Origin: Pleodorina starrii
Taxonomy: Eukaryota > Chlorophyta > Chlorophyceae > Chlamydomonadales > Volvocaceae
Reading direction: 5' to 3'
NCBI GenBank assembly: GCA_030267565.1
Contig: BRXU01000032.1
Location: 620,001 to 684,000, forward strand
Length of the DNA: 64,000 bases
In this document: positions 368-58,078 of the stretch, piece after piece
Position numbering within the stretch: position 1 is the first letter of the stretch
How the letters are laid out: every line of letters begins with the position of its first letter
The notes under the pieces: model-generated
Told to the model about the DNA's origin: nothing
The model's input: only the letters and a program-made list of their open reading frames with translations
Databases searched by the model: none
Position numbers and translations under genes: made by a program

Positions 368-3300
368 CTGCAGCCGGGGCATCTGTGTGGCCGCCGCCTC
401 CACCCTCAGCTCCCCGAATGCGGTCTCTCTCTCCGCCAGCCTCCGCAGCACTCCCTGGTCGCTGTCACCCGCCTTCTGCATGGCGGACCTGGGGACAGGG
501 TGGGGGGGAGGGGAGGGGTAAGAAAGGAGATACCGCAGCGAAGGGACTGAGACGGCGTCAGCGAATGGTGGGGGGGGGTGAGGGAAGGGGATGTTTCCGA
601 CGTGTGGGGGGGAGAGGGGGGCGCGGGACAGGAGGGGAGGGTGTGCGCGTTCTGAAGTGCCGTCAACCCCTACTTCATCCCACCCCCCCCCCCCACCCCC
701 GCCCCGCCGCCGATGAGCGAGGAGGGGAGGGGCAGGGGGGGGGGACGCGGCGGTGAAAACATCCGACCAGGAGCGACCAGGTGACGGCACGCGGGCCCCA
801 AACTAATGCTGCCATGTCCCCAGTGGCCGCGGGGCGGTACGACATCGTGGTACGGCACCTGTACTGCGAGATCCGGTCCCAGTACGGCTTGGAGGCGGTC
901 GCCGCGGGCTGCACGCGCCACTTGTCTCCGTGCTTGTCGCGCATCTCCCCATCCGCCCGCGAGTCGGCGTCCAGAGACTCCTGCGGGGGGGGAGGGAGGG
1001 GGGAGGGGGAGGGGGAGGGGGGAGGATGCAATGCCAAACTGGGACACTGGTTGTAAAGCAACTGGGGAGAGGGGGAGGGGAAAAAGAAAACGGCCCCGGA
1101 TGAGAGAACGGTAGGGGAGGGGGGAGGGGTGCAGTGGACCAGTCCTCATGAGGCTGGCTGACAGGCTGGCAGTACGGCATGCTGGATGGGGGGTGGGGGG
1201 GGGGGACACTTCGGGCGAGCAGGGCACTGCCTTTGCAGGCTGGGAGGGCCCACGGGGACTGAACACGGTACGGCGCGGTCAGGGCGGTTAGGGCGAGGTC
1301 GCGGCTCCTCCTCCCCCTCCCCTAGGGGGGTGAGAGGATGGGTTGTACATGGGTTGTACATGTACAATGCGGGGGTGGGGGTGGGGAGGTGCTCCCCCAC
1401 ACAGCTCATTCGCCAACTGGTGGGTGGGTGGGGTGATACGGATTCGGTCACATGCCGCAACACAGCTCCCCCCTCCCCCCCTTCCCCCCTCCCCCACCTG
1501 CGCCGCCATGAGGTCCGCATCCACCTCCCGACGGATCTCCCCGATCTCCGCCAGCATCTGCCGTACGTACGGCAAAGTACGGAACAGGAGCAAGCGAGCA
1601 ACACAGGGCATTCGCAGGGTCATGTCAGGAAGAGGCAATGTCACGCGAACCGTGATGCCCAGCCGAGCCGAGCCGAGCCTGCAGCCCTCCTCGGGGGCTC
1701 ACCCACCCACCCACCCATCCACCCATCCACTCCGCCAGCCCCCGCTGCTTCCGAAGCACCCTAACCCCCCTCCGCCACGCATACCGCTCTTATCCCCCCC
1801 CCCCAAACCCCTCCCCCCTCACCGTTCTGCATTTCACTCTCAACCCCTTCCCCCGCTGGCCCCCCTCTACCCCTTCCCCCCCCGCCACTCCATTCGTATT
1901 CTCCCAAACCCGCGCCTCCTCCTCGCCTCCCCTCCCTCATCCCCCCCTCCCTCCCCCCCCCGCTCCCCCGCTTACGCCCTTAAGGTGGTTGAGTCCCCCG
2001 ATGCCCTCGATCTCATGCAACTCCCGCAGCAACGCATCGGGCAGGGCGGCGGAGGTGCGAGCATCCAGGGCCTGAAAGGGGGGGAAGGGGGGGGTGGCCG
2101 GGGGCGGGGAGGAGGTTTGGGGGGAGGGCGTCAGAGGCTGCGAGGGCGGGGGCGGGTTGGGGGGCGGGTTGGGGGGCGGGTTGGGGGGTCAGGGTGGGGG
2201 GTAGGGTGGGGGGGAAGCATCCGCACGGTGTCGGCACTCGACAGGCGGAGCAGAGGCGAGGGCGTGTGTGTTCGCCGTGTGTGTGTTTGTGTGTTTGCCA
2301 CGTCACACACCATGTCGCGGGCAGACCGCGATGCTGCCCTGCCCTGCGCTGTTCTGTGCTTGCGTGCATGTGGCCGCATGCACTGGCTTGGGGCACTACG
2401 CAGTCAACGAGCCGCGCCCGCTCCGAAACCCCCCCCCCAAAGACCCTACATCCCATGCAGACCCCTCTTAAGTCACTCGAAACCCTGTATCACCTTGCCC
2501 GCCCCAGACCCTAAAGACCCCCTCCCCCCTACTCCCTTCCCCTCACCACAACCATCACCACAACCGTCACAAAACCCCAACCCTAAGACCCCCGCCCCTC
2601 CCCCTCCCCCTCCCCCCACACACACACCTGCAGTGTGTCCGGCAGCTCCCACTCCCTGAACTTGATCCGTGCGTTGTCGGTTGCCCCCGCCAGTCTGTCC
2701 AGTTGGCGGCGGATGAGGTCGTCCACCAGGTCCGTGTACTTGGACAGGGCGCGGGCGCTGAGGAGGCGGCGGGCGGGGGGGGGGGGTAGGAGGAGGGGAG
2801 AAGGGGGAAGGGGGAAGGAGGGGGGGAAGGGGGATTACCGTAAGAGCTTTGGGCGAGGAGGGTAGAGCCATGCGCTGAGGCCAGCTTAGCAGGCTGGCAG
2901 GCACACGGCGGCTTCTAATGGAGCAACCGAAGAGGGGTACCTCCCCAGGGGGGCGATGGAGGGGAGGGCGGAGGAGGCTGCGGACAACACACGCATGACC
3001 TCTCCACCCCCACCCCCAAAAAATAACAAAACAACGCATTGCACTCGTAGTCCCCCCCCCGAACCCCCGCCCACACACCCACACCCACACCCCTACAACC
3101 CCCCCACCCACACCCCTACCTGGTGTCCGGCACCAGCCCCGTGAAGAGCTGCTCCGCCGCCGCATCCAGCGCCCCGGCTGAGGGGGGGACGCTCTTGACC
3201 AGCAGGGCCCCGCTGGTGGGGGGCAGCTCGGAGAAGGTGGGGACCTGGGGGGGAGGGAGGGGGAGGGGGGGAGGGAAGGGAGGTGTCGGAGAGCCTGGGT

Positions 3301-6300
3301 AAGGGGAGAATTGGGGTGAGTGTTGGCGTGTGTTGGGTTGGGAGAGTGTTTGGGTTTGGGTTTGGGTTCATGAGGGGGAGGGAGGGTGGGGGAGGGTGCG
3401 ATGTGGAGGCCTACCGGGGATATCGGGGACCCCAGGGGGCAGATCGTGACGAGAGGCAGACTCCCCCCCACACAAGGGGAATGGCGCGCAGAGGGCGGGG
3501 CCAGCAGGAGCCAGAAGGGGGGGGGGGGGCAATGAAGAGCATTCGGGTGGCCCCCAGCGATGCCCCGTTCACCGGCCCGTTTGCAGCTCGAACGGAGGAG
3601 GTGATGGCCCCCCTTCCCTCCCCTCCCCTCCCCCCCTCCCCCCCCTCCCCCCCTCCCCCCCCCTCCCCCCCCCCTCGCCTTCATGAGGTAGATGGAGTTG
3701 TTGTCCTTCTCCGCCTTCACAAGCAGAGACTGAACCAGGTCCTGATTTGGGGGGGGGAGGGCGAGGAGGGGTACATTGGGGGGCGATGGTTCGGGCGGGT
3801 GAGCGAGGGTGTGGCTGACGGGTGCAGCGGGTGCAGGCGGCGGGTCAGGAAGTGGAGGGCGGCAACTTGATGGTAAGACTGGACCTGGATGTCTAGCAGC
3901 GGAACGGGGCCCAGCAACACCCCCCACACCAAAGGAGCTTATCACTCCCTGACCCCCCGCCCCAACCCAACGCATCCCGCCGCACCGGCCCCCCCTTCTT
4001 GCCCTGCAGACCTGCAGGCACGCATCGACCGCACATGCACACCGCCCCCGCCCCTGCACCGCCCCGCCCCTGCACGCCGACCGCATCGCCCTGCTGAGTC
4101 GTGTCTCGGTGCCGGTGCCGGTGCCGGTGCCTGGACCCGTCTCAACGCAGGAGGCACCGCTGCGTTGTGCTACCGGACGGGGACCCTTCCCTTCGTATGC
4201 CCTCCTGACTGCCGCCACCCAACACCCCTCCTTCCCCGGCCCATCCGCGCCCCCGCGCACGCGCCCGGACCGCCCTCTCCGTTTTAAACCCCCAGCACAC
4301 ACCTACACACAACTACACACATGCACACCTACAAATACACCCCTACACACACACCTGCGTGCGGTTGACGCTCTCGATCATTTCGTTGCTGATACCCTTG
4401 GCGATGCGCCGGGTGCTCTGAACGCGGAGGGGGGGGGTTGGAGGGGTGGGGGGTTAACAAGAAAGAGACCCCAGCAGCGAAAAGGGCGGAGACGGCGTCA
4501 GCGAGCGGACCCTGCTGTGGGGTGGGGTTGGGGTTGGGGGTGGGTGATGGTTGGTGGGGGTGGGGGTGGTGGGGGGAATCGAGAGTGAGGTGCGCTCCGT
4601 TGTGAGGGGGGGGGGTGGCAAAGGAAGGATGGCAGCAGCCACGCGGCCAACAGACAACAGGCGCACACACACAAACAAACACACACACGCAGCTGCAGGT
4701 GGCCCGACCGCTTCACCTCTTCTCACTCAGAGAGAGGGGGGGGGGTACCTGGCTGGCTCTGCCTGGCTCTGCCTGTGAACCGTCCTCCACCCGGGACACC
4801 CGTCCACCCATTCAAACACATATACATACCCCTACAGCCCCAAACACACGCGCCCCTCTCTCCCCCCACCACCATACCACCCACCCACCCACCACCCTCT
4901 CCCCCCCACCTGCAGCCTCGCGAATGCCTCCTTGAGTGCCGCAATCTCCCAGTTGACCTTGTCATCTGTCCGGTATTGCCGACTGGACTGAATCAGCTCC
5001 TCTACCTGAGACACCAGTGACAATGGGGGGATGGGTGGGGGGAAGGAGAGGGGGTGGGTGGGCAAGGAGAGAGGAGGAAACAGGAAACAGTCCTGACTGA
5101 CTGGCTGGCTGGCAGGCATACGCAGACGAACGGGAGCCAAAAGGGAATTCCGGAAAGGAGGGGAGTGAGGGGGGACTACCGGTAGCGACTTGCAGAGTGA
5201 TGCTTTCGATTGGATGTGTGTGCATGTGTGGATGCGCGAAGCGGCTACCTTGGGCGGGTTGGGTTGGGTTGGGCGGGGAGCAGGACCCCGCAGACAGACG
5301 CTCGCCCGCCCAGTTGACCGGTGGGGGCTTCTGGACCCGATCCTCTTCTCACCCCCCCCCATGCGCTGTGCTTTGGGAAAGAGAGCGACTCCAAGTCCAA
5401 GTTCTCCTTGCCCGACCAACTCACACCTCCCACCCGCCTCTAACCCCCTTCCTCCCCCCGCCCGATCTCCAACCCCCCCCCCGCCACGCCCCTCAGCGCT
5501 CCTGCTCCTCCGTCGTTCCTCCGTGTTCCTCCGTGTAACCCTCGTCCATCAGTTCGGCCTGCCAATTCTTTCGCCCCACCACCACCACCACCACCACGAC
5601 CACCGGACTGGGTAAAACCCCCGGCCACCCGCCCCTTCCCTGGCCCCCCTCCCCCTCACACCTCCCGCCACCCCGCCCCACCCCGCCCCCTGCCCACCAC
5701 CGGACTCCCCCCTACCGAGTATATGCTGGCCTTGAGCTGCACGTGTTGTGGCCAGCTCTTGTCGAAGTAGTTGAGCAGGGCGGGGGAGTCGAAGAGGCGC
5801 TCCACCTCCACGTACATGCTGCCGGTCTGAAGGGGGGGAGGAGGGAGGGGGGAGGGAGGGAGGGGGAGAGGGGGAGGGGGTTAAGGGGGTTGAGGCGGGG
5901 GAGGGGGTTGAGGCGGGGGAGGGGTTGAGGCGGGGGAGGGAGGGTAAATGGAAAGTAGAATGGCGAGAGAGGGGGTGAGCGGGGGCAGGACGGGGGGGTA
6001 GGGCGGGGAGGGAGCACGGGTTCAAATAAAAGGGATTCGGGGGGAAGCTGGGGAGGTTGTGAGACGGGTCAGGAGGGGGGAGGGGTTGAGTGGCCCCCGT
6101 GGACGATGGAATGCCCGGGGGAGGGGGGAAACGGAACGGGGGGCGGGGGGGGGGGGTTAAGATCGCGGGAGGTGGAACGGCGCAAGGAGACACGGGCCCC
6201 AGATCTGGTGCTACTGCTGGAGAGAGACCTCGGAGACATCTCCCGGCCTTGGGGAAGCAAGGACGTGAACGCCCCACCAGTCACCCATGCCCCAATCCCC

Positions 6301-9300
6301 GCCCGCCGCCCTCTTGATTCCCCTTCCCTGTCAATCTACCCGCCCTTTCCCCCTACCCTACCCTTGCACGCACACACACACAACCCCTCCCACCACCCGA
6401 CTCAGCTACAACTCCCTTCCCCCTCCTCCATGAGCGAGGCACAGCCCCCTCCCTCCCCTCCCTCTTCCCCACCCCCCCCCCCCATTCCCCTCCCCTCCCC
6501 CTCCCCCTCCTCCCTCCCCCCCACCTCCCCCCCCACCTGCTTAGCCAGTCGGGCCAGCACATTGGGGCTCTTATTGTCCAACACCGCCTTGTGGTACACA
6601 CACTCCTGGGGGGGGGCGAGGAGGAGAGGGGGGGGAGGTGAAAGGGATGGGTTAGGAAATGGCCGCAACGATGGCAGGGGGGAACAAGGGCGCGAATGAG
6701 GGGCGGGGGTGACGTGGCGAATGTGGGTGTCACCAGAGCTAGCTGGCAGGCTGGTGGAGGCGGGACCGCAGACTGGGTGAGGATGCCCGGGGCTCCCTCC
6801 ACCCCTGGAGCTGAGGGCCCCCCCAGGCGGCCCCCTCCCTTGCACTCCCATCTTCGCCCCTTACTGCCCTCAGCCCTCACCACTCATTCCCGCTCGATGC
6901 CCCACTCCCTCGGCCCTCACCCTCACCCCCCGCCACCCCAATGTGCCCCGCGGCAAGCCCCGCGGCAAGCCCCGCCAAACCCCGGTCCGGACCAACAAGC
7001 CCCTTTCGCCTCCTTCAGACCCCGAGCGACCCAAAAGCAGCGGCCGCCGACCACCACCACCCTCCCCCCACCACCCGCTCCGCTCCCCTCCCCATCCCGC
7101 CCCGCGCCCCCATCCTGGGTCCCACCCCACCCACCCGCCTTCAACTTGCTCCTTTATCCCGCCTCTCCCTCAGCCCTCACCACTCAGCCCCTTACACCCC
7201 CGATCCCCCCCTTTCCCCCCCGCCCTCCCCCTCTCCTCCCCCCTCCTGCCCCCCCCACCTGAGCCTGTGTGAGCATGAGCTTCTCCAGCAACAGCCCGCA
7301 CTCGGGACCGATGTCGGTGGGGCGGGGGGTGTCCGTCTTGCCAGCCTCGCCCTCGCGCATCAACTGGAACGTGCCGCAGGCCTCCTGGGGGGGGTGAGGG
7401 TGTGTGGTGGTGGGGGGTGTGGTGAGGGGTGGGTGGTGTGGGTGTGTGAGGGTTGGGTGATGTGGGTGCGGGTGTGTGAGGGTGCGGGGGAGTCAGGCGG
7501 GCGGGCAGGGCAGTGCACAAGGGGGAAGGGCCGATGTGCAGCTCAGCCGCTGCACCCCACTGAGCACTCAACACACCCATCTAGGCAGGGGAGGAGCGGC
7601 AAGGCAGGCAGGCAGGCAGGGGGCAGGCAGGGAGCTGCGTTGAGAGCAATGACGCGGCCGTGGTTCAGCGCCGGGGTGGCGCCGGGAGAGCAATCGGAGG
7701 CCGCGGTCCAGGGGCCCAGTCGGGGGCGGGCAGAGAAGCAACACCCCCGCCCGCCCGCCTTACGCACACGCCTGTTCGCGAAGCCTCGGCCCCCCCTCCC
7801 TTCGCAAAGCCCTCCCTCCGCTTCCATTTTCGGCCCGTTCCACTTCAACACCCCGTGCGCCCCCCTGCCTACGCCCCCCTCCCTGCGCCCTCCCTCCCCT
7901 CCCCCCCCTTCCTGCCTGGAACAGCTTGCATGCCGCCGTGAGTCCCTCTGCGCTGGTGCGGTCGCTCTGCAGCGCCTGCTGTGAGGCCAGTGAGGCCAGA
8001 TTGAACAACACACCCGCCTTCTCGTAGTGGATGTTGGTCTGGGACACACGGCGGCTGGGACGGAACGCATCGTTCCAGGCGAACGACACCTGCGCCGGGA
8101 GGGACAGGGGGAGGGAAGGGGGAGGAAGGGGGAGGTAGGTAGGAGAGGGAGGGGGAGGGGAGGGTGAGGTAGGTAGGGGAAGTGGGGGAGGGAGGGCGCT
8201 TGAGGCCGGTGGGGGGTGGAGGCAGGCACAGGCACAGGCAAGACACGTCCCGGCGCTCACTGCCCAATGCACGGGGCGTGTGTCCGGCGCTCCTGACACC
8301 CCACCCTGCCGCCCGGTGCCTCAGTCCCTCAGTCCCTCAGTCCCTCAGGATGTGGGCGAGGCCTCCAAAGCCCCCAAGGCCTTCCCGCTCCCTCGCGACA
8401 CCCTCCTCCGCCCTCTCCTCCGCCTCGATACGGCCACCCCCCACTCCACCCCAACCCGCCCCCACCCCCACCCCACCCCTCACCCCCACCTGCGCGTGTC
8501 CCTTCTCCTTGCTGATGGGGAAGCGGGTCTCCACGGCACACAGGTAGCGGTAGTACCTGGGCGGGGGGTTGAGGGGAGGAGTGCATTAACCCCACGTTGC
8601 TTCGTTGCTACCGGGAAGCCCAGACCGCTCAAGAGACACGCGTTGCCGAACAGGGGAATGGAAGATGGAGGGTTTAGGGGGCGGTTGAATGCAAGGGAAC
8701 CGAAAGGGCCATGTCTGAAGGGGCGGGGTGGCGGGGGAAATGCGACATGCGTACTCGAGTGAAATGGGACATGCGTCCTCTGGTTGCGGCAATCCAGCCC
8801 CTGTGGTCAACCTTGAACTCCAGATATCGCCAGGAGGGTAGAGGGGACAGGGAGTGATATGTTCCTTTATATAAAAGGGCAGGGGGTAGGAGGTGAGGGC
8901 GGAGGTGGCCGGGGAGCGCACGGTGGTGGTGGTGCTGGGGGCGGTGGTGGCGGGCCGCTCTTCGCCACCACACCCACGCAGTTCCAACCGACCCGCGGGT
9001 CGGCCCGAATGGAAACACGCCACGGCCGGCTCTTCCCAAGCCAAAGGATAGACAACCTGGCCTGCTCCCGTCACAGTTTTCCCAAAGCCATGCAATGGCG
9101 GACTGCCCTCGGATCGGTCAGTGGGCCCCCAACTGGGAACTGCTGCCAATTGGAGCACCGCAAGCCGCCGTGTGTCACACACAAGTAACGCGTGATTGCA
9201 TCGGTATGTGAGGTTTGGTGCGCGGTGTCACTGGCACAGTCCGACTGCGGAGTGGGGACTGCTTGCCAAGTGGAGCGGCTGGCCGGCTGGGGGACGGGTT

Positions 9301-24154: not shown

Positions 24155-24415
24155 TTACGGCACTCGGCACATGTAGCTCTGTCTGCCGGGCCCGATGCAG
24201 ATGACTTTGGGGTTGCCGCAGCAGGGGAGGTCGTGGTAGCCGCTGGGGCCGCAAGCGCTACCCGGGGGGAGGCACGCCTGCAGCAGCGCCCGCGCCGCGC
24301 TGCCGTCCCGCTGCTCCAGGCCCCTTGCGGCGGCGAAGAGGGATGCGATCAGCAGCAGAGCAGCCGCCAGCAGCAGCAGCGGCAGAGGCGGAAGGGAGCG
24401 CCGGGGGAGAGCCAT
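24155..24415 (-). CDS. Small secreted six-cysteine (knottin-like) peptide, copy A, 86 aa
   Basis: Single-exon frame MALPRRSLPPLPLLLLAAAL... ending CRVP. An N-terminal basic patch and a Leu/Ala-rich core (about residues 8-30) look like a secretion signal. A short linker (LEQRDGSAARALLQ) leads to a cysteine domain spaced C-x6-C-x9-CC-x6-C-x9-C. Adjacent CC in a six-Cys pattern is typical of inhibitor-cystine-knot peptides, which include plant antifungal peptides, protease inhibitors and venom peptides. I do not claim toxicity or any activity. It is nearly identical to copies B (26326-26601) and C (27570-27833) up to the fifth cysteine; only the last loop and tail differ (IGPGRQSYM here). Three-fold conservation of frame and cysteines argues strongly that it is real. 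Confidence 0.8.
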   Translation of the reverse strand: MALPRRSLPPLPLLLLAAALLLIASLFAAARGLEQRDGSAARALLQACLPPGSACGPSGYHDLPCCGNPKVICIGPGRQSYMCRVP

Positions 24416-25204
24416 AGTCCGATATTTGAACTAGCGACGGGTCTGGGTCTGTGCTGGCAGCCGCAGCAGAGCCGGCTCAAACGTGTCAGTGTTGTTGTTA
24501 CGGATGTCGCTCTTGAACCGAACGTGTTGGGTTATCACTTTGTTTGGTGGGCCTTGCGCTGCTTGCGGGGTGAGCGCGGTGAGCCGTTTTCAGAGCAGCG
24601 ACCTACAAAGTTTGCTTGCAGTGACAAGTTGGCGGTACAAACTTATCGCAAGCGCTCCTTTTACCGGGCAGGTGTACCGTGTACGGCAAGAGGAGATATA
24701 TCGGCTTCTTGGGAGCTGAGGAGAGGGCGGCGCCGCCGCACTGTCAGCCAGCAGTATGGCATGTGGTCTGCCGGGTGCCGGGCAGCATCTACTCGCACGC
24801 AGGGGCGCCCTGCCACCTCCCGCCAGCGGAAAGCTGACAGCCGCCGCTGTGGGACCCACGGTGGGGTCCTTTTTTCCGTTTGCGCCCCCTCATGTGCCCC
24901 CCTCCCCTCCACCCTCCGGAGGAAACAGCTCTCTTCCGCGGAGGGACCTCACCTTGTGGGGCCACGGGGCACTGACCTCCGCTGCTGCTCACCGCTGTTG
25001 TTGCTGTCTCGGGCGCACTCGGGACCACTTCCAGGTAACCGACTCTGCTGACACACTGGCCGCGTCCCGGTGCGTGGGTGCGTGCGTGCGTGGGTGGGTG
25101 TGTGGGTGGGTGGGTGGGCCTCAGCTCTGCAGCGTCACGCCTGTAAAGAGCCCATTGCTGCTGCCACGGCATCTCGGCCGCACACAGCACGAGAGTGACC
25201 AGGG

Positions 25205-26227: not shown

Positions 26228-26325
26228 GCCTACAGCGCTCCTCTCTACAGCACTACTCCCGGGGGGGTGGGGTCTAAGGAGCAACGCAGTGTGGCCCTGT
26301 GGCGCCTGGTGGCCCCCATCTCACC

Positions 26326-26601
26326 TCACGGCTCCATGCACGAGTAGTCGGTGTAGTCCCCTTCGCTCATGTCTCCGACGCAGATAACTCGTGGGTTGCC
26401 GCAGCAGGGGAGGTCGTGGTAGCCGCTGGGGCCGCAAGCGCTACCCGGGGGGAGGCACGCCTGCAGCAGCGCCCGCGCCGCGCTGCCGTCCCGCTGCTCC
26501 AGGGCCCTTGCGGCGGCGAAGAGGGATGCGATCAGCAGCAGAGCAGCCGCCAGCAGCAGCAGCAGCGGCAGAGGCGGAGGGGAGCGCCGGGGGAGAGCCA
26601 T
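26326..26601 (-). CDS. Small secreted six-cysteine (knottin-like) peptide, copy B, 91 aa
   Basis: Same architecture as copy A: MALPRRSPPPLPLLLLLAAA signal-like N-terminus, LEQRDGSAARALLQ linker, then C-x6-C-x9-CC-x6-C-x13-C. The final loop (VGDMSEGDYTDYS) is longer and more acidic than in copy A, and the tail is MEP. The start is the first ATG and is shared by all three copies. It is transcribed divergently from copy C; the two share inverted-repeat upstream sequence (26738-26860 with 27345-27465), so they are an inverted duplicate with related promoters. Secretion and a disulphide-knotted fold are inferred from sequence only, and the target is unknown. Confidence 0.8.
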   Translation of the reverse strand: MALPRRSPPPLPLLLLLAAALLLIASLFAAARALEQRDGSAARALLQACLPPGSACGPSGYHDLPCCGNPRVICVGDMSEGDYTDYSCMEP

Positions 26602-26737
26602 AGTCCACTTGCGGTGGGGCTGAGCCGGTGAGGGGCGCTGCTGGTCGGTGTTGGTCGGGGCAAGGCTCGGCAGAACGTTTTTGATGAGTACTGATGTTAC
26701 CGTATTGTTATTGTTGGGGTGAGCAGGGCTGCTTTAT

Positions 26738-27465: not shown

Positions 27466-27569
27466 TAAAAGCAGCCTTGCACCGCCCCGTCCCAACACAA
27501 GCGCTCACTCGCACTTCCCACCCAGCCTCGCACCGAGCATCACCGATCCAGCCCCACCACAAGTAGACT

Positions 27570-27833
27570 ATGGCTCTCCCCCGGCGCTCCCCTCCGCCTC
27601 TGCCGCTGCTGCTGCTGCTGGCGGCTCTGCTGCTGATCGCATCCCTCTTCGCCGCCGCGACCGCCCTGGAGCAGCGGGACGGCAGTGCGGCGCGGGCGCT
27701 GCTGCAGGCGTGCCTCCCCCCGGGCAGCGCTTGCGGCCCCAGCGGCTACCACCAGCTCCCCTGCTGCGGCAACCCCAAAGTCATCTGCGTCGGAAACGTG
27801 AACGGTGGAGACTACTCGTGCATGGAGCCGTGA
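27570..27833 (+). CDS. Small secreted six-cysteine (knottin-like) peptide, copy C, 87 aa
   Basis: MALPRRSPPPLPLLLLLAAL signal-like start, LEQRDGSAARALLQ linker, then C-x6-C-x9-CC-x6-C-x9-C ending MEP. The fourth copy-wide block (GNPKVIC) is intact and the last loop is VGNVNGGDYS-like. It is the only plus-strand member. Its 3' flank (27902-28003) is similar to 26190-26310 in the same plus orientation although genes B and C are inverted, so flank and gene were duplicated or inverted in separate steps. The same caution on function applies as for copies A and B. Confidence 0.8.
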   Translation: MALPRRSPPPLPLLLLLAALLLIASLFAAATALEQRDGSAARALLQACLPPGSACGPSGYHQLPCCGNPKVICVGNVNGGDYSCMEP

Positions 27834-30437
27834 GGTGCGATGGTCAGACGTTGTGCTGCCAATCTTAGCAACCGCGCTCCGCCTGTTTCCATATCGCAGC
27901 CGCGTCAATTCGATTAGCTATCCCGGCTTACAGCCTACAGCGCTCCTCTCGCTAATCCCTGGGGGCTCAGCGACGCAGTGTGGCCCTGTGGCTAGGTGGC
28001 CCTTCAAACGCTCAAGGTGGTCCTCCGCCCACCGACCCGTGGGTCACTGAATTATTAACACGTGACTTGCCGACTTCACGTCCCGACACCGCATTTCCAT
28101 GCGCACTGGAAACAGGAAAAGGCGGCAGTAGCGGGGGCGCTCGCTCGGGGGTCTCTGCATATGCCGTTATTCCAGTGCCGCAGCTGCACACCCCCGGGCT
28201 TCATTGTTGCATTGATAGACAACGACATCGAAAGAGACACCACGCACCTCGTTCAATTCATTTCCGGACCTTCTCACAGCCATGACGCATGCGAGCCTTC
28301 CCCAGGCCCTCCGCATTACCCCGAGACCTGGTATCCTTTAGCCATTTTCCTGTGGCTCCGCTGCCCTCACCACCCTCACCCTGCCTTTGTTTGTTTGCAG
28401 GAGGCGCACTCTCTCTGAGGCTCTACCCCTTCCCTCCACCCTCCTTACCACCACGAGCCTTATCAAGTACGGTACGACAAACACGCAGTGCCTTGCATGC
28501 ACACGCACGTGCTACACCGCCGCAAGTACGGCACCGCCTCGAGTGGCATCTTCCAGTTGTGCGGTTGGTCGCTAGCCGGAACAGCGAACCAGTTTTGGAC
28601 ACTCTGCACCCCGTTGGGCACTCCCGTGCGGTTGCTATGGGCAGTTGTGCGTTGGCTCGTTGGCATTACGTATTTGCGGGACATTATTTGCAGAACAGGG
28701 CACGGCCCTAAGGGAGAGGGCCGCTGGCCGGGCGATCCAGGGCGCCCAGATGGGGCAAGTCAGCATCCGCAGCAGTTGCCACACGAGTTGGTTGTTAGTT
28801 GTGGTGGAGCAGTTGGTCCTAGCAGCTGCCGTACTCTCAGTCCGTCTGCCTGCAGCGGCACTGGAGGTCGTGCCTCCACCAAACCGAGCATGATGGTGTG
28901 ATTGGCCGGTGTGCTGCCTGGTCGGTTGTAAGGTGGTGCTTCCGGCTGGCTGGCCTGCCGTCTCCGTCGCCGCCGAACACCGGCTGGCTCCCAGCGCAGC
29001 CGGGTACCTAATCTGGTGATCTGGTGAGCCGCACACGCCAGGACTGCTGAGGCCTGCTGAGGTCGTCCCGCGGGTGGTGGCTCCAGTCCGTGCAGCCCCC
29101 CGCCTCCAGCCGGATGACCCGCCGCCATTCAGCTGTCGCCGCCGCGTGCGCCGCACCACGCCGGTTTTCTGAATCCAACAAAAAACAAAGACGTGCACAC
29201 ATGCACACGCACACACGCATACGTGCTACGGCGACTCCAACAGAGCAGCACACTCAACACACACCAACACGGGTGTGCGCTCCAGGCGCTTGGACTGTCG
29301 GGCGGACCGGAAGAGGGCGGGCGGGCCTCGGGAAGGAAACACGGTCGGTCAGCGCGAGCCTGCACCCGTATCGAACTGCTTCACGAAGGCCATTCCCTTT
29401 CTCCGCCCCTTGGTCAGCGCCAAGCCAACGCACGCTGCAAGGTGCAGGCGGCCTCCTCCCTGACGCACCCTCCAACCCGAACTCCAGGGAGCCCCGCTCC
29501 ACATCCCAATGCCGGGAACGCACATGGCAGCATGCGGCAGCTTCCACAGCGAAGCGCCGCGGCACGCCGCTGGGACCCCACCGCACCGTGCATTACTTCA
29601 CATCCGCATCCGCCGTCGGGAGAGAGAGAGAGAGCGCTGTCCTCTTAAACGCTTCGATGGCACGCACGCACTTGGTGCGTCGTCCGCAATGTATCCCCCC
29701 CAAGAAACCCTACCGGCAATAAATCAGAAACCCCATCACAAATCTACCATGACCGAGCTGCGCCGCGCCGCACAATGGCCCCCCTAATCCCTCCCCCTCT
29801 CCCCCGCTAGAGGCCGGACCGGGTCCTTCCGACACCCGGGCTTGGCGACCTGGCCGCGGAGTGCAGCCCCGAGGCCACTTCCAACCAAAACCTACCAATA
29901 CTCGCGCGAGGGAGGCCGAACTGCATTGGGCCCACCCCCCTTGGGCCGCCTTGCTGTCCTCCCTCGCCACATCCCTGACAACGAGTGGGTACGAGTGGGT
30001 GCGGCCGCACACCGATTGTGACGATGATGGTGGCGGTCACTCGGTGGCCCCCCACCCCACCCCACCCAGTCAGCCACCCGGTCATCCTGCGCTCCCTCAG
30101 GGCCTGCCCCGCTGCCCCGCCCTGGAGCCCCGCTGTCCTACCGCCTTCCTAACTCGTCTCGTCACTGCCTGCCCCCCATTACCGCACGCAGCTCCCGGCC
30201 GAGATGTGCTGACACACGTCCGGAGCAAAGCCTTGGGCCCAGTGGTTAGTTCCTCACAACCAACCAACCAAACAACCAAAGAGGAGCGCCCAGACACGGT
30301 CCGTGCTAATGGCAGCACCCCGGGGTAGGCCATCAGCATCAACACAAGTTGCCCGGAACAGTCCGGAACAGAGCCCGGCAACCTGGGCTGCTGCTGCTCC
30401 TGACCAGTAACACACGCCCGCAAGTCCTCATCTGCAC

Positions 30438-53113: not shown

Positions 53114-54160
53114 ACACAGCACGAATGGCCACTACGACGGTGTCCGCTGCTTGGTTCTAACCAACACGTACGACCAACGAACCCACCAACCGACCACGAA
53201 TCGCCGCCTTCGACTCCCCACGTGCACGCCCACGTGCCTCATCCTAGGCCACGCAACCGAACCGCTACCACCACCTGCAGGGTACGCTAACGTCGTTGAG
53301 GGCCACCACTCCTCAACGCCATCACCCTCACCCTCGCCGCCGCCGGCCCCTTCACCCCCAGCGGCCGCAGTCCAGGATGGCGCCTCCGCAGCGGCTTGCT
53401 GTTGCGGACTCGCCCGCCCACCACCGCTGTCGCGGCCGCCCTCCTGGCCCGACTCCCTCCCTCGCAGTGGCCGCCTCCCGCCCATCCACTGACGCACTCC
53501 ACCCACTCGGGAGCCTGCAGGCGCCGAGGGGACCGACCGACCGGGCCAGTCAAGGCCGTCTTGCTGTTGGGTTTGTCGTTGGGTGTGTTGCGACAGTGGG
53601 CTCCCGACCCTCGGAGGGGTAGAGCCGGCTGCGGACCAGCTGCGCGACTGGCCGTGTGCGGCACCGGTGCCCGCACACCGGTAGGTCCGATTGCCCTTCA
53701 GGGGGCTGCCCAGCTGCCCAGCACGCAAGGTCGCCTGGAAACACCATGCCAGCAGCAGCAGCATACCCACATCACATTCCTGGGCCAGGCGTTCCCTTTC
53801 GAGCTGTTGGATTCCCGCAACCGCGCGGTCTCACCTGTCCAGAAGGACCCCTACCCCCGTTCCGGCTCCCCCCATCCCAATGCAGATCATGGCAACCTAC
53901 AGTGCAGGGGTGCGCGCCCAGCCCCAGCCCCACCGCACCGCGCCTCCAGTAGCCCCTTCATTACCTCCTCCCCGACCCGGTGAAACGCCCGCCGCCCTGC
54001 TGCGAACCCACAGCTTTTACGTGGCGTGCAATGTATGCAGGCATCCCTAGCCGCCCTACCCTCCCCCGCATGTGGGCCGCCGCCTTCCGCCCTCTGACCT
54101 CCCCCGTCGGTGCACCTTCGTTCGCCGCCGTTCCTTTACTGCGGCTCGCACAATTTTGTC
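53114..54160 (+). repeat. ~1-kb direct repeat, left copy (partner 57108-58078)
   Basis: It begins ACACAGCACGAATGGCCACT and ends ...CACAATTTTGTC. It is nearly identical to 57108-58078 except for indels: the right copy lacks about 100 bp near 53830-53930 and differs around 53370-53430. Frames cross it on both strands but resemble no family. It could be a segmental duplication or the long terminal repeats of an unusual element; it has no TG...CA ends. Confidence 0.85.
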
Positions 54161-54870
54161 GGTTCGGCTGTGGCCCGTTCGGCTGACACCACAACTTTAC
54201 TGCGGCTGACACCGCCGACGCTTGGCAGCGGTGTCCTCCTCGTCCAGGTCCTCATCGATGAGTTGGTTGCCGTTGCTGCTGCGGAAGAGCTCCCAGCCGC
54301 CATTGACGGCGCTGTCGCCGCGGTCAACACTACCGAGCAGGAGGCCCAGACCCTCCCGTTCCTTCCTGAGGAGGTTCTGTCCTTCGTCACTACAGAGGAC
54401 CTGCTGCGCGAGGTTGCTGCGCGCTGCAATCGTGGTCGCGATGCTGCTCCGGTCGGCGCTGGCGCCGCTACTGAGGCGGATGCCATGGCTGTCGATGATG
54501 AGGACCTGGACGAGGAGGACACCGCTGCCAAGCGTCGGCGGGTCGACGACTCTGCTGCTGGGCCGTCCTCTGGGCCCCCGGCTGCTGCTGCGGCGCGGCC
54601 CTCCTCGTCCAGGTCCTCATCATCGACAGCCATGGCATCCGCCTCAGTAGCGGCGCTAGCGCCGACCGGAGCAGCATCGCGACCACGATTGCAGCGCGCA
54701 GCAACCTCGCGCAGCAGGTCCTCTGTAGTGACGAAGGACAGAACCTCCTCAGGAAGGAACGGGAGGGTCTGGGCCTCCTGCTCGGTAGTGTTGACCGCGG
54801 CGACAGCGCCGTCAATGGCGGCTGGGAGCTCTTCCGCAGCAGCAACGGCAACCAACTCATCGATGTTCAT
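54136..54870 (-). pseudogene. Palindromic gene fragment, minus-strand frame (N-terminal acidic domain)
   Basis: The minus frame starts MNIDELVAV at 54870 and reads 88 sensible codons (Ala/Glu/Asp-rich, ending DLDEE). It then runs into the loop and the antisense of its own first arm, giving a Ser/Arg-rich nonsense tail. A plus frame (54110-54898) does the mirror image. The ATG-containing side is probably the true 5' end of a parental gene whose intact copy is elsewhere. The parent is unrecognised; the acidic stretch followed by KRRRV suggests a nuclear protein, with low confidence. I call it a fragment because the coding sense cannot continue through the fold-back. Confidence 0.5.
54210..54865. 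repeat. Nested fold-back: 266-bp near-perfect palindrome encoding the same peptide on both strands
   Basis: Arm 54253-54518 and arm 54600-54865 are inverted copies of equal length (266 bp) with one mismatch that I can find (GGCGCTGGCGCC versus GGCGCTAGCGCC), separated by 81 bp. Each arm encodes, on its own strand, the same acidic stretch from IDELVAVAAAEELPAAIDG to AMAVDDEDLDEE. The loop continues the plus-strand frame as DTAAKRRRVDDS, a nuclear-localisation-like basic patch. A 45-bp piece of that region (54497-54541) is present again, inverted, at 54210-54257, just left of the first arm. A transcript would fold into a very long hairpin. Confidence 0.9.
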
Positions 54871-55084
54871 TGCTGCCGAAACATCGCCGAAGTGGTAACA
54901 GCTCTAGCAGCGAAAAAGGCCAGACAACCGTCTCGATACCAGCTCTGTTGTAGTTAAAAGTCCAACTGCTGGGGGCAGTCAGAACTGCCGATTAGAGAAG
55001 CGCAGAGTGCTTAAGAGCACGAGGTGAGCGGATGTAGCGTACGGCGGTCACAGCGTTCAGAATCGGTGGCCCACCACGGTGGGG

Positions 55085-56500
55085 GGGGGGGGCTTCTAAT
55101 GAGAAAAGTGAGAGATCCAATCTCTTTATAAACTTGCTTGTCGCACAATTCTATTAATAGCCAAATGTAAATTGCGCATAGTGCTTAATACTTATGAAAC
55201 GCTATGAAACGCTATGAAACGCTAGCTCACCACGAAGCAGAACACAAGGGACCACAAAATGATAAACACAACATACATGCCGACATTCTAAAAAGTAATC
55301 CTGTGCAAATGGAGGATGCGCGCTCCAGCCCTGGAGACTATCGGTACCTTCCGCAAGCATACGCAAGTACGGAAGATTTCTGGTCCGACGATGGCGACGA
55401 CATTGACACTACGGGTAGGTTGCTCTATTATGGACACGTACCTATTATGGACGAACATTTTTTCCTGTCGCGACCATGCAAGCATAAATCACAGGAAAAA
55501 TCAGACAAGCGTACAATTGTACGACCTACATACAAGAATTTTCTTACGACACATGTATGCCGTCCAATATCAGTTTGTGAGATCTCAGTCTGCTCGGAAG
55601 TTTTATGCCGTTGCAAATGCAAAGGGCGGGAGCGCCTACGGGGCCGTAGAGAGCAGTTCTCAATTTTACAGAGTCCCTTTTATAGTATTCAATAGCATAA
55701 GTAAGATGGTTAAGACTAGAAGCACTTCCGGACAAGCAAATAAAATTCCTGACACCCGACCCGGCGGGTCGCTCAAGAAGTCGCGCGGGAAAGCGAACGC
55801 GAAGGTCCCGCTGGCAGTCGCCAGGCAGCAGCAGAAGAAACTGCTACAACAGTGTCTAGAGGACATTCAAACTAACAAACGGACAGCAGCGACGCCGGGG
55901 GCGCGGGCGGCAGCGCGGGTAACGATGCTGTCGGCAGTGGGAGCGGGGCCGCTAACCGCAACCGGGGCCGGGTGTCGGGCAAGCCGGACAAGCGGGGCAC
56001 AGGCAGGATAACCAACGATATAATGTTCAAGTTCGCGTTGCAGGCTGAGTGTTAGGTATAATATTGTAGTTATAGGATCTTGACAGGCTGCGCGCGACGT
56101 TTTGGCGGTGTTTCCGTACTGTTCTGCACTCGCGTCCATAATAGGGACAACTGCCGAGCGCAAGGGCAAACATACCCCTCACCGCGTTCCTTACCTGACA
56201 GCGTGCTACCATGTCCATTTGCAGCTGAACGGTTTAGGATATGTCCAGTACATGTGTAAGAACCTTCCGTAATTTTTTGGGCATTTGTCGAGTACGTCTA
56301 CCGATTTCAGAGACGGTTACAACGCTCGGACGGCCCATAATAGGGCAACCTACCCGTACGGAGTTTCGTGTAGAAATCCGCGACGCATGTGGTTGGCCAT
56401 GTGACCGCGGAGCAAGAGCTGGGCAGAGTAATGAATTTAGCTGTTTACGTTCTTACGCTAGGTAGGAAACGCCCAAATGGTTTCGGTGTTTGTGAACACA
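55085..56500. other. AT-richer island with CArG-like palindromes
   Basis: Clearly less GC-rich than the rest of the window. It has three tandem ATGAAACGCT units (55194-55223), CArG-type decamers CC(A/T)6GG at 55441-55450, 56136-56145 and 56335-56344, and a 23-bp inverted repeat (55411-55433 with 56335-56357, one mismatch). Frame 55204-55695 (163 aa) is open but unrecognised. The island lies between the two 1-kb direct repeats. Confidence 0.55.
55706..56011 (+). CDS. Small basic protein frame, possible retroelement Gag-like N-terminus
   Basis: A 101-aa frame starts MVKTRSTSGQANK, then is Lys/Arg/Gln-rich (GSLKKSRGKANAKV, ARQQQKKLLQQCLEDIQ) and ends Ala/Gly-rich. Starts of the form MVxTRS are frequent in Gag proteins of plant and algal Ty3/gypsy elements, and the frame lies between ~1-kb direct repeats. 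However, I find no protease, reverse transcriptase or integrase in 54.2-57.1 kb. It could equally be a chance frame. Low confidence. Confidence 0.25.
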   Translation: MVKTRSTSGQANKIPDTRPGGSLKKSRGKANAKVPLAVARQQQKKLLQQCLEDIQTNKRTAATPGARAAARVTMLSAVGAGPLTATGAGCRASRTSGAQAG

Positions 56501-57107
56501 GGAAGCGATCAACCCAGCCAAGCGTCGCCTTTCGCGTGCTGGGGCCTCGGCGTCCCAGCCGGACTTCCAGTCCCCCACGAAGCGTCCCGGCAAGACGGTT
56601 ACAACCAAAAAACACCCGGATCGTGTCGGCATCATTACGTCGCTCACATCGGGAGGTACTTCGGCCATGATTGGATGGAACGAGGGGGCGCTATGGGCCT
56701 GTGTGCGCCAGTGCCACAGCTGGGAACTCTAGGGGAGGCGACAGCGATTCTGCCGGCGAGCGTAAGGGGCGCAAGAGCAAGCTAGGTGCTGTGGAAACTC
56801 TGACCATGGGAGGCCTATCGTGCAGCTTGCAGCGCAGAATCTCCGCCAGAGTGTGTGGATGCAAGGCGGCATCCACAACCACAAGCTTGGTTTGGTGACA
56901 GTTCCAATGGCAACGTCCTCGTGGACGCGTTGCAGAGGGAGATGGGTTCGGGCAAGACGGGGGCGGTTGGACCGGAATCAGCCCTCCACACGCACACGGG
57001 GCCGTAGGTGGCAAGGGGACTGCCCTCCACCCGGTAGGGATGTGTTGCTAGGCCGGCCGCGAAGGCCCGGAAGATGCACTTGGCCTAGTTAACTGCAACA
57101 AAATCAA

Positions 57108-58078
57108 ACACAGCACAAATGGCCACTACGACGGTGTCCGCTGCTTGGTTCTAACCAACACGTACGACCAACGAACCCACCAACCGACCACGAATCGCCG
57201 CCTTCGACTCCCCACGTGCACGCCCACGTGCCTCATCCTAGGCCACGCAACCGAACCGCTACCACCACCTGCAGGGTACGCTGGCGTCGTTGAGGGCCAC
57301 CACTCCTCAACGCCATCACCTTCACCCTCACCCTCGCCGCCGTCGGCCCCTTCGCCCTTGCGCCCCCAGCGGCCGCAGTCCAGGATCCGACCGATGGCGG
57401 CCCCGTTAGGACGGCACCTTCGCAGCGGCAGAGCTGTCGCGGCCGCCCTCCTGGCCCGACTCCCTCCCTCGCAGTGGCCGCCTCCCGCCCATCCACTGAC
57501 GCACTCCACCCACTCGGGAGCCTGCAGGCGCCGAGGGGACCGACCGACCGGGCCAGTCAAGGCCGTCTTGCTGTTGGGTTTGTCATTGGGTGTGTTGCTA
57601 CGGTGGGCTCCCAACCCTCGGAGGGGTAGAGCCGGCTGCGGACCAGCTGCGCGACTGGCCGTGTACGGCACCGGTGGCCTCACCGGTAGGTCCGATTTCC
57701 CTTCAGGGGGCCGCCCAGCTGCCCAGCACGCAAGGTCGCCTGGAAGCACCATTCCAGCAGCAGGGTACCCACATCACATTCCTGGGCTAGTCGTTCCCTT
57801 TCGAGCTGTTGGATTCCCGCAACCGCGCGTTCTCACCTGTCCAGCCCCAGCCCCACCGCGCCTCCAGTAGCCCCTTCATTACCTCCTCCCCGACCCGGTG
57901 AAACGCCCGCCGCCCTGCTGCGAACCCACAGCTTTTACGTGGCGTGCCATGTATGCAGGCATCCCTAGCCGCCCTACCCTCCCCCGCATGTGGGCCGCCG
58001 CCTTCCGCCCTCTGACCTCCCCCGTCGGTGCACCTTCGTTCGCCGCCGTTCCTTTACTGTGGCTCGCACAATTTTGTC
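57108..58078 (+). repeat. ~1-kb direct repeat, right copy (partner 53114-54160)
   Basis: Same boundaries as the left copy (ACACAGCACAAATGGCCACT to TTTTGTC), about 76 bp shorter overall. The start-to-start distance to the left copy is 3994 bp. Confidence 0.85.

Follow-up and report, generated by a model that had tools for sequence, protein, structure and literature searches.

A sense-antisense-sense gag palindrome in Pleodorina starrii, probably derived from the spliced RNA of a Ty3/gypsy chromovirus

The window, a stretch of 64,000 nt from contig BRXU01000032.1 (C32) of the Pleodorina starrii genome assembly (positions 620,001 to 684,000, forward strand), includes a long palindrome that adjoins an LTR end and lies between two copies of a direct duplicate. 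The features of this locus are listed below. Element positions (el) are nucleotide positions in the chromovirus copy L015, and exon numbers refer to the predicted exons of the same family.

53118 to 54160, plus strand: D1, a ~1-kb direct duplicate, 91% and 98% identical to 57112-58078 in two blocks
54161 to 54211, no strand given: 51-bp spacer from D1 to the gypsy piece; 54195-54212 resembles 54134-54151 (89%)
54212 to 54256, minus strand: third segment, sense again, from the exon 3/exon 4 join into exon 4; 45 of 45 nt identical to the reverse complement of 54497-54541
54253 to 54518, plus strand: left arm, 265 of 266 nt identical to the right arm (reverse complement)
54253 to 54607, plus strand: inverted copy, comprising the left arm and continuing through exon 4 (KRRRV) to ~54607; 54489-54607 is 89-90% identical to L010
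54287/54288, plus strand: exon 1 joined to exon 2 without intron 1; homologue of the L019/L015 join el 512/585, GT..AG
54434/54435, plus strand: exon 2/exon 3 join, intron 2 absent, placed to within ~10 nt; L012/L015 join el 716/1045, GT..AG; also L009
54502/54503, plus strand: exon 3/exon 4 join, intron 3 absent; L012 joins el 1226/1821
54519 to 54599, no strand given: loop, 81 nt
54600 to 54865, minus strand: right arm, 266 nt, within the sense copy of the gag start
54600 to 54870, minus strand: spliced gag start in sense, with the ATG at 54870 and the ORF MNIDELV..., homologous to L009 and L011
54871 to 54927, minus strand: leader from the primer-binding site (PBS) to the ATG, collinear with L009 and L018
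54928 to 54941, minus strand: putative PBS TGGTATCGAGACGG, just past the LTR end; the same sequence follows the 5' LTR of L015
54946 to 55055, minus strand: 3' part of an LTR with ACAACA at its end, corresponding to nt ~268-381 of the L015 LTR
57112 to 58078, plus strand: D2, the other duplicate, matched to D1

The palindrome is confirmed as real. The two 266-bp arms with a single mismatch and the 81-bp loop of the original prediction were reproduced, and the mismatch lies at 54461/54657. The arms are 99.6% alike, and their length and identity are far beyond chance. When they are lengthened inward to 276 nt (54253-54528 and 54590-54865), the number of mismatches rises to five and the loop shortens to 61 nt, the four mismatches gained all lying near the loop. 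With a minimum of 60 nt and a maximum separation of 5 kb, the window has two further inverted pairs, at 24-28 kb, which are less alike (79% and 94%). In the same region, 24192-24420, 26316-26631 and 27540-27843 are three copies of one window repeat, one of them inverted (90-96%).

On the plus strand, the left arm, loop and right arm are preceded by the 45-nt piece at 54212-54256, which repeats the left-arm/loop sequence 54497-54541 in the orientation of the right arm, and the segment order is hence sense-antisense-sense. A third inverted piece had been predicted at 54210-54257; it is present, though a little shorter. At the second junction, the antisense and third segments share 4 nt, GATG, which form part of the self-complementary octamer CATCGATG. 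Microhomology at this junction therefore exists as anticipated, but not as the 9-nt ATCGATGAG that had been named. For want of a close parent copy, the first junction is placed only approximately, near 54600-54607. It is also true, as had been remarked, that both strands encode the same peptide, yet any palindrome with an open arm gives that result. The only protein match for the locus is the annotated P. starrii protein PLESTB_001578600 (P0001), which aligns with the minus strand in two blocks, at 100% identity. Searches of Rfam, phage DNA and, for ten window ORFs, Pfam returned nothing matching the palindrome.

Read on the minus strand, the final ~110 nt of an LTR (55055-54946) come first, followed by the PBS-like site, the leader, the ATG at 54870 and the right arm. 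This arrangement indicates that the arms represent the start of a chromovirus gag region, not a host gene. The LTR end is 85-95% identical to 40 other genomic places listed, and all 40 alignments of this piece end at 55053 or 55055. When the genome was searched with the left arm plus loop, 33 matches were obtained, three of them within the palindrome and the other 30 at 71-90%, and the relatives of the arm sit in LTR retrotransposons. The intact parental gene that the original prediction proposed to find in this way did not emerge: all 28 of 28 candidates were scored, and none in the assembly was more than 90% identical to the arm.

As the piece spans only the LTR end to gag exon 4, and two LTRs and pol of a complete element were not found, it is classed from its sequence as a derivative fragment, apparently a truncated insertion of the 5' end of an element. 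No target-site duplication is visible around the window copy, and pol and the 3' LTR are absent, which argues for non-standard integration or later trimming. The LTR similarity stops at nt 268; an RNA start at this position is not supported, as none of the 41 matches listed begins there. Formation as a LINE-made processed copy is not supported either, since neither a poly(A) tract nor a target duplication was seen by eye at 54212 or 55055.

The family was characterised in L015. Its 381-bp LTRs are 99.7% alike, its ends are TG..CA (TGTTGT...ACAACA), the target duplication is GCAAC, and a PBS-like site, TTGGTATCGAGACGG, follows the 5' LTR. The pol ORF (1391 aa) encodes protease, reverse transcriptase (RT), RNase H, integrase and a chromodomain, with domains in the order RVT_1, RT_RNaseH, Integrase_H2C2, rve, SH3_Tf2-1 and Chromo, of which the rve match (31.5 bits) is just under the cut-off of 32.6. 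These features identify the parent family as a Ty3/gypsy chromovirus, to which the window piece is assigned through the match of its LTR end, PBS and gag to L015 and relatives. The LTR, PBS-like site, gag, pol order and chromodomain of the family are those of Ty3/gypsy chromoviruses in general. In contrast to these, the P. starrii family appears to have three introns in the leader and gag, and the window piece is a truncated, folded and spliced 5' end without pol.

The three putative GT-AG introns were recognised by comparing copies with and without them. Relative to L015, L019 lacks intron 1 (el 513-584) with exact GT..AG borders, while L012 defines intron 2 (el 717-1044) and has intron 3 removed, el 1226 being joined to 1821. 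In L035, el 512 is joined straight to 1821, i.e. exon 1 to exon 4. The script left some joins in some copies unplaced; all three introns are consistent with the alignment blocks of L012 and L019. The donor of intron 3 is GACGAG/GTACTT in L009 and L015 and the acceptor is TTCAG/GACCTGG in L010. L009, a relative that is 81% alike in one stretch, has introns 1 and 2 present, plus the intron 3 donor.

In the window arms, the joins AAG/AGC at intron 1 and GATGAG/GACCTGG at intron 3 are both exact, and that at intron 2 is placed only to ~10 nt because exon 3 is shorter in the window. The mirrored joins of the right arm lie at about 54831/54830, 54684/54683 and 54616/54615. The absence of the introns indicates that the arms derive from spliced RNA and, given that the same exon joins occur in both arms, the template was spliced before, or during, the duplication. 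The copies L012, L019 and L035 are integrated chromoviruses without introns; L012 is annotated as PLESTB_001715200 (P0002), in which the leader ORF is joined to a zinc-knuckle-like gag end and the middle of gag is skipped. BARE is likewise an LTR retrotransposon with spliced RNA, reportedly a spliced gag RNA, whereas in P. starrii the spliced copies (L012, L019 and L035) are integrated in the genome. BARE is described as having distinct RNA pools (PMC3735527). In P. starrii, integrated spliced and unspliced copies side by side permit a direct test of the use of spliced RNA by an LTR retrotransposon.

The insert between D1 and D2 holds, in addition to the gypsy piece, a second repeat from about 55077 to 57097, and the spacer at 54161-54211 carries an imperfect repeat of the D1 end. 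D1 and D2 were considered as LTRs of a palindrome-bearing element and rejected, as their ends are not TG..CA, no target duplication is seen, and the paralogues L024, L025 and L026 match upstream of D1 and downstream of D2. The match on both outer sides suggests that D belongs to the ordinary sequence of the locus and was duplicated on either side of the insert; the insertion thus appears to have come with, or been followed by, a 1-kb tandem duplication. The identity between the arms (99.6%) exceeds that between the duplicates, so either the fold-back is younger, or the arms were homogenised, or short-read polishing evened them. The idea that D and the palindrome form one unit was also discarded, as the palindrome found in L025 is unlike both the element and the window palindrome. 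The L025 palindrome (L025:3933-4415, C22) is ~480 bp long and 83% alike, and adjoins a D-family locus. A further repeat of ~950 bp (about 55410-56361) interrupts the older repeat at ~55077-57097; it has short inverted end matches and 99-100% identical copies on C7 and C2, and is perhaps a young non-autonomous DNA transposon.

The palindrome is probably a truncated insertion of the 5' end of a chromovirus, whose spliced RNA was reverse transcribed with two strand switches. Spliced element RNA consisting of the LTR end, PBS, leader and gag exons 1-4 would enter reverse transcription, and the copying enzyme would switch strand in the exon 4 region and again near the start codon. The resulting sense, antisense, sense product would then enter the genome between what are now the two copies of the 1-kb duplicate. 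The family, the spliced origin, the segment order and the 4-nt overlap at the second junction can all be read at the locus. The forward-back-forward order is that of a polymerase leaving its template, copying the other strand and returning, and hence calls for two switches. The original prediction, that a polymerase working on a gene or cDNA switched template more than once, is accordingly supported at this locus, with the leader and gag of a chromovirus as parent and spliced RNA as template. Template-switch mutations in the four-point model of Loytynoja and Goldman reportedly have this order too, forward, inverted and forward, together with a short overlap. Here, however, the inverted segments are roughly 200-355 nt long, and the events recur within a single segment of a single retrotransposon family, in part on spliced RNA.

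This recurrence was established from a census of the gag-3' segment (el 1797-2237, 441 bp), in which all 26 of 26 candidates were scored and the 32 matches were grouped by hand into 25 loci, two C8 matches being counted as one locus; 17 of the 25 were examined as DNA at least in part. Inverted duplications occur at four of the 25 loci, on C10, C15 and C35, where the census itself shows opposite-strand matches, and in the window, where they are known from the separate arm searches. The C10 copy (L031) runs in sense through the LTR, PBS, leader and an exon 1/exon 4 join, then antisense to ...CGATACCAA, and in sense again from el ~2112. In the C15 copy (L033), sense sequence to el 2128 is followed by antisense from 2205 to 1858 and sense from 1838, and in the C35 copy (L039) the corresponding limits are 2101, 2152 to 1946, and 2159. 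The breakpoints differ among the four loci, which argues for separate events. Inverted pairs in L016 were excluded from the count, as they fit the insertion of one element into another in the opposite direction. Inverted pairs are also present in L021, L023, L025, L029, L036 and L038, outside the fold-back count.

No inverted duplication was found among the family pol matches (el 2238-6417; best 40 of 60 and 40 of 183 candidates), where one simple inversion without duplication (C2:6527487) was not counted as a fold-back. An 88-nt inverted repeat in pol at C4:3787398-3787485 belongs to a distant relative (68%) outside the 25 loci. As the gag-3' segment makes up 9.5% of the length searched, all four fold-backs would fall there by chance with a probability of 8e-5, or 9e-4 for the three loci other than the window. 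When the 88-nt repeat of the distant relative is counted, the values are 4e-4 and, without the window, 3e-3. The hot spot is nevertheless a rough result, because the survey covered el 1797-6417, with el 418-1796 outside it, and the pol part was a search of the best-scored candidates. Strong local RNA structure was rejected as its cause, the two lowest folding energies being those of the stretches at el 5101 and 661; those at el 1801, 1861 and 2101 also rank in the lowest five, with GC content uncontrolled.

The window copy and the C10 copy are fully spliced, the C35 copy is spliced for introns 2 and 3, and the C15 copy is unspliced. Three of the four palindromic loci are thus spliced, as against three or four of the 19 other measured loci, and the link between splicing and fold-back is borderline (one-sided Fisher test, 0.04 or 0.07). 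The two values arise from the ambiguous C2:8873, with 461 nt missing, which was counted both ways; C2:6531, which lacks 74 nt (approximately the size of intron 1), was counted as unspliced, and C6:3999158 and C8 were left out. The underlying table has 21 rows, and in some of them the LTR end was extrapolated, by no more than 20 nt; the value for C35 was computed apart, and C32 was judged from alignments.

The strand switches most likely took place during reverse transcription and not later in chromosomal DNA, as judged by the spliced template at three of four loci, the clustering in one segment of one family, and the antisense segment of the C10 copy, which stops no more than about 2 nt from the edge of the PBS. 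In LTR retrotransposon replication, minus-strand cDNA normally ends at the PBS. Integration of a spliced gag retrocopy, with the fold-back arising afterwards through template switching while chromosomal DNA was replicated or repaired, is rather unlikely. Such switching would equally be expected to give the three-segment order with a short overlap, and very short foldback inverted duplications have been described at yeast DNA breaks (PMC11724301). The fold-back of C15 lies in an unspliced element and may therefore be a DNA event, which counts against an origin of all four in reverse transcription. A DNA-level process does not, however, readily account for a 441-bp segment that, at 25 loci, has four fold-backs differing in their breakpoints, when none was seen among the family pol candidates scored, nor for an arm at C10 that ends at the PBS edge. 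Palindromes are also a known artefact of long reads, produced by fold-back at the hairpin adapter. An assembly or sequencing artefact is unlikely, to the point of being given almost no weight here, because only the arms are mirrored while the outer flanks differ, the arms are mismatched, and the assembly (P. starrii NIES-4479; 95 contigs, 136.1 Mb) was built from PacBio reads polished with Illumina data (PMC10256686). Moreover, a third sense piece follows the arms, and three further loci have the same kind of structure with other breakpoints.

Origin by strand switching during reverse transcription of spliced RNA does not require any function for the palindrome, and a hairpin RNA would form only if the locus is transcribed. 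The original prediction went further, to a hairpin yielding small RNAs against the parental gene. A natural silencing trigger, in which read-through RNA folds into a long hairpin and gives rise to small RNAs against the family, would resemble Mu killer of maize, whose anatomy is reportedly an inverted duplication of part of a transposon. The window has the inverted duplication but, unlike Mu killer, few exact matches between its arms and present family copies, and its transcript is hypothetical. Long near-identity to active copies was not found, as no fetched locus had more than 7 of the 335 21-mers. Among the loci fetched, exact arm 21-mers are common to two C8 places only (7 of 335 at 187 kb and 5 of 335 at 202 kb), with no exact match in the remaining loci; single 19-mers are common to the arms and L014, L015, L016, L033 and L035. 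Together with the lack of a parent above 90% identity, this goes against the predicted targeting, and the annotation of P0001 across the palindrome is no proof of expression. The host is, as predicted, a volvocine alga. In favour, a 613-nt RNA is predicted to fold at -679 kcal/mol, as a very stable hairpin. In Volvox, Gypsy elements give rise to small RNAs bound by AGO3, and miRNAs are made from the inverted repeats of Jordan (PMC5093975); a small-RNA pathway therefore exists in the group. The Jordan loci are, as described there, also transposon-derived foldbacks in a volvocine alga, yet Jordan is a DNA transposon whose terminal repeats fold (PMC5093975), whereas the window holds an internal gag duplication of an LTR element. 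A silencing role for the palindrome is weakly supported by these comparisons and appears highly improbable.

Long hairpin loci are thought to seed transposon silencing, but their formation is seldom observed. In this case the sequence allows the steps to be followed, namely spliced RNA, reverse transcription, two strand switches and insertion, with three comparison loci in the same genome. A broader proposal is that the family often reverse transcribes its own multiply spliced RNAs and that the polymerase folds back in the GC-rich gag-3' stretch, palindromic progeny being a recurrent by-product (four of 25 loci). This is offered tentatively, as a possibility that is somewhat doubtful. If true, such a family would be a steady natural source of long-hairpin loci and a possible origin of silencing RNAs. 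Recurrent gag palindromes from spliced retrotransposon RNA were found undescribed in the titles and abstract openings searched, a set with most subscription journals outside it.

Two other rearrangements were observed in the family. L016 (C2:6697391-6709538) is a full chromovirus apparently inserted in an opposite-direction copy near el 400 of the host element. In L010 (C8), a 303-bp direct repeat (L010:4406-4708 and 5239-5541) lies in the gag region, its copies being 97.7% alike and 833 bp apart, with a T-run between them.
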